NCBI GenBank assembly: GCA_009392815.1
Contig: VFFS01000043.1
Span: 1 to 48,688, forward strand
Direction of reading: 5' to 3'
DNA from: SAR202 cluster bacterium
Lineage (GTDB): Bacteria; Chloroflexota; Dehalococcoidia; Lucifugimonadales; UBA826
DNA: 48,688 bases
Part shown: positions 27,212 through 29,644 of the stretch, one piece after another
How the letters are laid out: each line of letters begins with the position of its first letter
Position numbering within the stretch: position 1 is the first letter of the stretch
Program-made: the position numbers and the translations under genes
Notes under the pieces: generated by a model
Databases searched by the model: none
Told to the model about the DNA's origin: nothing
Seen by the model: the letters and a program-made list of their open reading frames with translations, nothing else

Positions 27212-28477
27212 CTACTGTCCATCGATTACATCAAATCCAGTATAGGAACGCAGCACTTCCGGAATAAGTACGCTCCCATCTGCACGTTGAAAATTTTCCA
27301 TTATTGCAATCAACACCCGCGGTATGGCAAGACCTGATCCGTTGAGAGTATGCAAAAAACGGGGCCTTCCTCCTTTAACAGGTCTATATCTGATCGAAGC
27401 TCTTCTTGATTGGAAATCTGTGCAATTAGAACAAGAGGACACCTCCAACCATTCCTCCGTCCCTGGGCCCCACATTTCCACATCATAACTTTTAGAGGCA
27501 GCAAACCCTAGATCTCCGGAACATAGCTCCAGAACTCTATGGGGGATACCCAATTTTTCACAAACATCCTCTGCATCTCTGACAAGAAGTTCCAACTCAT
27601 CGTACGAGACATCAGGTTCCACAAATTTATACATCTCTACTTTGTCAAACTGATGAACTCTCTTTATACCTCTAGTGTCTCTTCCAGCAGAAAATTTTTC
27701 GCGACGCCAGCATGGAGTATGAGAAACAAACCTCATTGGAAGCTCTGCGTAATCGATTATTTCCTGGCGAAACATGCCAGTAACAGGAGCTTCTGCAGTT
27801 GGAACCATGAAAAGATCATCTTCCGAGTCGTGATACATATTTTCTTCAAAGTGCGGAAGATGGCTTGAGCCCGTTACCGTCTCTCGGTTGACCATGTATG
27901 GAAGGTATAACTCACTATATCCGTTCTCCAAGGTATGCAAGTTAAGCATCCATTGTATGAGCGCACGTTGAAGGGCAGCGCCTTTCCCCCTCAGGACATA
28001 GAACCTAGACTGAGCTAACTTAACTCCACTTTGAATATCAATAATGCCGAGATCTTCACCTATTTGCCAGTGCGGTTTAACTTCAAAGTCGAATTTCGGT
28101 TTCTCACCAATAGTTCTCACAACCACATTACCATCCTCGTCGTCACCAATGGGCACAGTCTCAGCAGGGAGATTAGGAATATTCATCAAAATAGATTCCA
28201 GTTTTATCGCAATATCACGCTCTTGTTCCTCCAATTGCTTGATCCGCCCACCAACTTCTCGCATATCCTGTATTAATTCAGCAGGTTTTTCCTTCAACCG
28301 ACCTAATTCCCGTGAAACATCATTCCTTTTCGCTCTCAGATTATCTATCTCGACAATTGTTAACCTTCGCTGCTTATCAAGATCGGCTGCTTCAGAAACG
28401 GGTATATCGATTCCACGCTTGGCGGCAGCGTCTTCTAGAATTTCAGGATGCTCTCTTATCAAATCTATATCAATCAA
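27212..28477 (-). CDS. serS: Seryl-tRNA synthetase
   Basis: N-terminal coiled coil, VPTAEAPVTGMFRQEII, CWRREKFSAGRDTRGIKRVHQFDKVEMYKF, SSCSNCTDFQSRR and LNGSGLAIPRVLIAIMENFQ. Confidence 0.97.
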   Translation of the reverse strand: MIDIDLIREHPEILEDAAAKRGIDIPVSEAADLDKQRRLTIVEIDNLRAKRNDVSRELGRLKEKPAELIQDMREVGGRIKQLEEQERDIAIKLESILMNIPNLPAETVPIGDDEDGNVVVRTIGEKPKFDFEVKPHWQIGEDLGIIDIQSGVKLAQSRFYVLRGKGAALQRALIQWMLNLHTLENGYSELYLPYMVNRETVTGSSHLPHFEENMYHDSEDDLFMVPTAEAPVTGMFRQEIIDYAELPMRFVSHTPCWRREKFSAGRDTRGIKRVHQFDKVEMYKFVEPDVSYDELELLVRDAEDVCEKLGIPHRVLELCSGDLGFAASKSYDVEMWGPGTEEWLEVSSCSNCTDFQSRRASIRYRPVKGGRPRFLHTLNGSGLAIPRVLIAIMENFQRADGSVLIPEVLRSYTGFDVIDGQ

Positions 28478-28821
28478 CTGCTAGTTATCCCTTCAATATA
28501 AGGTAAACAGGTCACAACCACATTCTATATAAATATCACCGCTATTTGGTTCTTTCACCCTGATCATAGGTTCTGGTACAGAAAATAACTAAGGTTATTA
28601 CGATAATTACGAATTGACCGTTTACGCTAACGGATAACAGTTATTTAAACCTAAACTCATACACAAATTTTCTGGTGTGCTTATTCATTACTGTTTAAAC
28701 TGGAAACAAATTTCATGAAAGCGTAGTTACGCAATCTTTAACCTTCATAGTCATATAAAGATAATTTAGGGTATTCACATGACTATATTTTGCGAAAAGC
28801 ACCGTTTTTTCTCTTTCTAAA

Positions 28822-28851
28822 TTGACATTATCGCAATGTGATGCATATACT
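28822..28851 (+). promoter_or_regulatory. Predicted sigma70-type promoter
   Basis: TTGACA (28822-28827), 18-nt spacer, TATACT (28846-28851). Confidence 0.55.
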
Positions 28852-28857
28852 TACGTT

Positions 28858-28963
28858 GAAAGGTTTTAGGTGGCGAGACTATAGGGAAATGGGTTAGAAA
28901 AGTTACAGATTCGTGATTTATTGAGAAATTCAATCCGTGAGCAAAATTGTCACGGCGTTTTTT
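28858..28963 (+). ncRNA. Putative orphan small RNA, about 105 nt
   Basis: Lies between a near-consensus promoter and a hairpin plus T6 terminator; no ORF in the track here. Contains a further hairpin ATTGA-GAAAT-TCAAT (28920-28934). Confidence 0.4.
28935..28963 (+). terminator. Rho-independent terminator-like hairpin
   Basis: CCGTGA-gCAaaatTG-TCACGG then CGTTTTTT. Confidence 0.6.
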
Positions 28964-29266
28964 CGCTGCCATATAATCCTTGTACTCTCCAGAAGATAAG
29001 AAACCAAACTCCGTACTCCTTCACTAGTCGGAACTGCCCTGGCGGATACCTCAAACTTCGACCTAGCAATCATCCATAGAAACCATCGTTATCCGGCCTT
29101 TCAAAACTAACCGGCCTTGGATTTATAGAAGAGGCGTAGATGGCGAATTCGATGACTTAAGATGACTTAAAGGGAATAAGTGACTCTCATACCATTATTC
29201 CCATAGACTTCCAAAGTAATCCCCTACTCAAGCGCGTAACTCTCTTATCAAGCATATAATCTAAAT

Positions 29267-29644
29267 ATGTCTCAGAATATAGAAGGGCGTCACGTAGAGA
29301 TCACTGACTATGCAGAAGAACTTATGTCAGTTCCGAGAGCACACGTTCGGATGGAGTATTCCCAAACCAATTCGGGCGTAGTACTAACACATGAGGGGAA
29401 CGAGCTCGTTAAATGTCCTTTGACTAGGTCTGGCATGGCTGCAGCAGGGTTCATGTCTCAAGCCATGGGTGTAGAGCTTCCAACTCTTAATGAAACTGTC
29501 AATGTGAGAGTGTCAACCGGAGTATTGTTCAGAGTCATCACCATAGCTGGACTCGACTTTGAAAACGATGCCTCTTTTATAATTTTGGATCGCATGTTGG
29601 AGGAAGCAGAACTTCAAAGGGGTTCGGCTTCTGGATCGGAGTAA
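29267..29644 (+). CDS. Conserved-looking hypothetical protein at the head of the fatty-acid cluster
   Basis: 125-aa ORF, same strand and close to the hot-dog genes; no domain recognised by eye. Confidence 0.65.
   Translation: MSQNIEGRHVEITDYAEELMSVPRAHVRMEYSQTNSGVVLTHEGNELVKCPLTRSGMAAAGFMSQAMGVELPTLNETVNVRVSTGVLFRVITIAGLDFENDASFIILDRMLEEAELQRGSASGSE

Follow-up and report, generated by a model that had tools for sequence, protein, structure and literature searches.

Genomic setting of the element

The window, that is, the whole stretch of DNA analysed here (48,688 nt), is one entire contig (C43) of a 1.78-Mb SAR202 genome bin; its SerS orthologues place it among marine SAR202 Chloroflexota. 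The candidate element is located in the gap between serS, on the minus strand, and a fatty-acid cluster on the plus strand, which opens with orf29267 and continues with two dehydratase-like genes, a PF02504 FA_synthesis (PlsX-type) gene and two short-chain dehydrogenases. The features of the region are listed below, with comparisons to G005, a genome of the same family and another genus.

27212..28477, minus strand: serS, the divergent neighbour (TIGR00414, 490.5 bits)
28696..28719, no strand assigned: second conserved block, TAAACTGGAAAN6TTTCATGAA, 21 of 24 positions identical in G005 (score 33)
28821..28890, plus strand: conserved block covering the promoter with its spacer and ~33 bases from the start of the transcribed part (GTTGAAAGG-TTTTAGGTGGC...), matching G005:C22:7922-7992(-)
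28822..28851, plus strand: sigma-70-type promoter TTGACA-N18-TATACT (11 of 12 positions matched), aligned with TTGACA-N18-GATAAT in G005 at equal distance from serS
28858..28963, plus strand: proposed RNA of ~106 nt, predicted from promoter and terminator, with its start placed 7 nt past the -10 and its end at the T run
28870..28884, plus strand: possible 4-codon frame GTG GCG AGA CTA TAG after an SD-like GAAAGG, read from the sequence; peptide not conserved in G005
28920..28934, plus strand: weak hairpin ATTGA-GAAAT-TCAAT, negligible at -0.8 kcal/mol
28935..28963, plus strand: intrinsic-terminator-like hairpin CCGTGA-N9-TCACGG, CG, T6 (-7.8 kcal/mol); sequence not conserved in G005
28947..28977, plus strand: second promoter-like match TTGTCA-N19-TATAAT (11 of 12), overlapping the terminator
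29255..29260, plus strand: -10 of the downstream operon, AGCATATAATCTAAATATG versus AGCATATAATCAACTTATG in G005, directly ahead of the orthologous gene
29267..29644, plus strand: orf29267, which opens the fatty-acid cluster; its protein family occurs across the order and has no name in Pfam or NCBIfam

The promoter and terminator on which the preliminary description of this DNA was built are both present, the former with hexamers TTGACA (28822-28827) and TATACT (28846-28851) and an 18-nt spacer, the latter with a 6-bp stem of CCGTGA (28935-28940) and TCACGG (28950-28955) around a 9-nt loop, followed by CG and T6 (28958-28963). The same holds for the small hairpin abutting the terminator and for the CGTGA motif, which lies at 28912-28916. 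No credible open reading frame spans the candidate RNA region, in agreement with the earlier reading, and the nearest plus-strand gene, placed by that reading about 300 nt beyond the terminator, starts at 29267, 303 nt after the T run.

Taken singly, neither signal is special. Promoters matching at least 11 of 12 positions occur on average 1.5 times per shuffled window, and terminators of comparable strength 10 times. The window has a single case of a promoter with a terminator 50-250 nt behind it. Of 60 shuffled windows, 1.7% contain this arrangement, and it did not arise in any of 1000 shuffles of the intergenic region. The second promoter-like match, lying over the terminator, has no counterpart that could be seen in G005 and is probably a chance occurrence.

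Conservation of the promoter and the RNA start

When the gap was searched by blastn against 40 relatives, the single match outside the window's own genome was in G005 (E 6.5e-4). There too the matching block lies upstream of serS, and its distance from that gene is unchanged. In a comparison of the two gaps only, its local alignment score was 47, with a maximum of 29 in 500 shuffles, and the consensus of the two sequences reads ATTGACATtATCGCAA..TG.TG..(T/G)ATA.T..GTTGAAAGG(A)TTTTAGGTGGC. The block at 28696-28719 stands 125 nt ahead of the promoter block in the window and 124 nt ahead of it in G005; it could serve as an operator or belong to the promoter of serS. It also holds TGGAAA-N6-TTTCATGA, an imperfect inverted repeat that is conserved in G005.

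The remainder of the gap, between and beyond these two blocks and including the terminator, gave no confident alignment to G005. The SerS proteins of the two genomes are 74% identical, and the retention of 70 bp in an otherwise diverged gap therefore points to selection on the promoter and the start of the RNA. Conservation in relatives, whose absence the preliminary description would have counted against the unit, holds for the promoter and 5' end in G005 and extends neither to the terminator nor to the rest of the 250 genomes of the order. Other hairpins are found in the G005 counterpart, at +48..+73 and +82..+103, the latter followed only by TTTAT, a poor T tail.

Probable independence from the downstream operon

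The -10 hexamer TATAAT of the operon lies six bases before the ATG of orf29267 and is conserved in G005, which gives the appearance of a leaderless start. Judged from this sequence arrangement, the operon probably has a leaderless promoter of its own, and the element in the window is consequently best understood as a short transcription unit in its own right. Two other genes intervene in G005 between the element and the orf29267 orthologue; together with the conserved operon -10, this implies that the element is not simply the promoter of the operon. The preliminary description had favoured a free RNA over a leader. A separate unit is supported by the conserved promoter and RNA 5' end and by the operon's own -10, which makes a leader of that operon less likely; the terminator is not conserved in sequence. 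In G005 the next gene on the same strand, Usp-like (named by eye), lies ~240 nt downstream, and there the element could serve as the promoter of that gene, with a leader role.

Folding of the candidate RNA

At -7.8 kcal/mol the terminator hairpin is modest, compared with -21.9 kcal/mol for a clear intrinsic terminator of the same genus. The whole candidate RNA folds no better than its shuffles (z -0.73), the conserved 5' stretch forms no stable structure, and a consensus fold of the two orthologues, from the window and G005, yielded no convincing common structure. A conserved hairpin at the 5' end, with AGGUGGC placed in the loop, was considered and rejected, as it did not surpass shuffled sequences.

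It had also been proposed that the upstream CGTGA might pair alternatively with TCACG and so act as a switch. This proposal is not supported: when the pairing of 28912-28916 with 28950-28954 is forced, the energy is -11.0 kcal/mol, about 7 worse than the -18.3 kcal/mol obtained with the terminator, and the ensemble probability of the alternative pairs is ~0. A transcription attenuator or switch requires an alternative structure that competes with the terminator, and the forced pairing does not.

Class and best explanation

The element is probably an ordinary lineage-specific small RNA gene or a regulated promoter unit, without a known family. An Rfam scan at the gathering score returned no family (6S, SRP RNA, tmRNA, T-box and riboswitches included), at a permissive threshold only chance eukaryotic matches appeared (E 0.87 or worse), and a tmRNA search found none; the earlier reading had likewise recognised no SRP RNA, tmRNA, 6S or T-box. 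To the more specific reading, a lineage-specific intergenic small RNA gene of this SAR202 bacterium with a product of ~106 nt, we assign roughly an even chance of being correct. It draws on the promoter, the hairpin, the fact that a second genus preserves both the promoter and the start of the RNA, the lack of a conserved open reading frame and the separate -10 of the operon, and further on the low frequency of such promoter-terminator pairs in shuffled windows and the lack of an Rfam family. Against it count the unconserved terminator region with the poor T tail in G005, the unremarkable folding energy, the single orthologue outside the window and the result of the target search given below. 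The element has a promoter of its own, TTGACA-N18-TATACT, that is conserved in G005, and the window and G005 share no conserved protein-coding frame across it.

In such a small RNA gene, a sigma-70-type RNA polymerase would initiate at about 28858 from the promoter at 28822-28851, and transcription would halt at the hairpin with its T run, whose last base is 28963, to release a free RNA of ~106 nt. The conserved, weakly structured 5' stretch (GAAAGG-UUUU-AGGUGGC) may be the contact region, either pairing with target mRNAs or being bound by a protein, a layout known from many trans-acting small RNAs. With regard to targets, ten-base complements of the 5' stretch were not enriched over a reversed control, and they pointed to no gene common to the window's genome and G005.

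Among known systems, the candidate resembles intergenic trans-acting small RNAs of the RyhB or Spot 42 kind in its own sigma-70-type promoter, its length of ~100 nt, the absence of an open reading frame, the intrinsic-terminator-like hairpin and a short, conserved, weakly structured stretch. Unlike them, it is related to no Rfam family by sequence or structure, and its terminator is unconserved in its one orthologue. With T-box and other aminoacyl-tRNA synthetase leaders it shares the proximity to a synthetase gene, serS, but it is transcribed away from that gene and has no T-box match in Rfam. A promoter, a short SD-GTG frame and a hairpin with T run ahead of a biosynthetic cluster also recall attenuator and leader-peptide regions; here, however, the operon has its own conserved -10, there is no regulatory codon run, the alternative pairing is unfavourable and the downstream gene order is not conserved.

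The same observations have to be weighed against other explanations. It is possible, though we regard it as doubtful, that the element is a regulated promoter whose initially transcribed region or operator is conserved, and that this promoter feeds a long 5' leader in which the hairpin is an attenuator or a product of chance. The genes served would be the fatty-acid cluster in the window and the Usp-like gene in G005. In favour of such a promoter, conservation covers the promoter and ~33 nt, and not the terminator, a second conserved block 125 nt upstream has kept its spacing, and the same-strand gene ~240 nt downstream in G005 has no promoter match of its own nearby, the hairpins before it having a weak T tail. 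The window itself argues otherwise, since a conserved -10 belonging to the operon lies six bases ahead of the ATG, a hairpin with T6 intervenes before that operon, and the CGTGA/TCACG switch is energetically unsupported; moreover, the first downstream genes are not the same in the window and G005.

The best conserved stretch of all is the region from GAAAGG to GTG, and the distance between the two (6 nt in the window, 7 nt in G005) is a good Shine-Dalgarno spacing. GAAAGG could be a ribosome-binding site and the GTG at 28870 the start of a tiny translated leader or small protein. This is unlikely: a one-base insertion shifts the frame between the two genomes, and the resulting frames of 4 codons (window) and 9 codons (G005) have only their first residues in common. 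A conserved promoter remnant with a chance hairpin and no functional product is very unlikely, because 70 bp conserved between two genera with 74% identity in SerS, in a gap that has otherwise diverged, argue for selection, even if few orthologues exist and chance alone often yields terminators as strong as this one (10 per shuffled window). The small RNA reading also has a more unusual variant. The 5' stretch GAAAGG-UUUU-AGGUG resembles the complement of the 16S rRNA 3' tail (CACCUCCUUUC) in both of its halves, and a SAR202-specific RNA with such a 5' end might sit on ribosomes or influence translation directly, in place of pairing with individual mRNAs. We consider this extremely improbable; the likeness is the same fact as the Shine-Dalgarno-like look of the stretch and is no evidence of a new mechanism.

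If transcribed, the ordinary small RNA gene would be a first concrete small-RNA candidate in the SAR202 clade of uncultured marine bacteria, as far as literature searches show, and its defined ends would make it checkable in existing ocean metatranscriptomes. The general view of RNA regulation would be unchanged; this is a common kind of gene.

Distribution among relatives and the orf29267 family

Pattern and model searches found no other convincing orthologue in the 14 other genomes of the family or in the rest of the 250 genomes of the order. A serS scan of genome contigs revealed no further close relative, the serS-orf29267 gap in other families of the order holds no similar element, and viral contigs and phages gave no match. 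The motif is kept at serS in no other genome of the family; in genera g2, g3, g4 and g6 only a short gap separates serS from the dehydratase-like gene that comes after it. The contig of G001, a member of the same genus as the window, begins 28 nt upstream of serS and is thus uninformative on the element.

Weaker matches in g2 (G007, G011) and in G001 fall within coding regions and were discarded. In three genomes of genus g4 (L045, L046 and L047, from G008, G004 and G010), a TGAAAGGTTTTAGGTGACAGA-like sequence that resembles the window's RNA 5' end precedes an SDR gene and stands 6 nt past a hexamer TAAGCT. It looked at first like a shared element, yet the resemblance was not significant: a model made from the window and G005 only recovered it in one genome (E 0.042) and not in the other two. 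A pattern made after seeing the g4 hits is circular, and the look-alike is therefore treated as unproven.

The product of orf29267 has 125 aa and no match in Pfam, NCBIfam or PDB; of 247 genomes in the order, 119 contain it. Only two genomes within the window's own family carry a member. In several genomes, members lie beside serS or precede fatty-acid genes, and in another family of the order (L181, L185 and L186, from G081, G084 and G083) a Uma2-type endonuclease-like gene, judged by eye, is situated between serS and the orf29267 orthologue.
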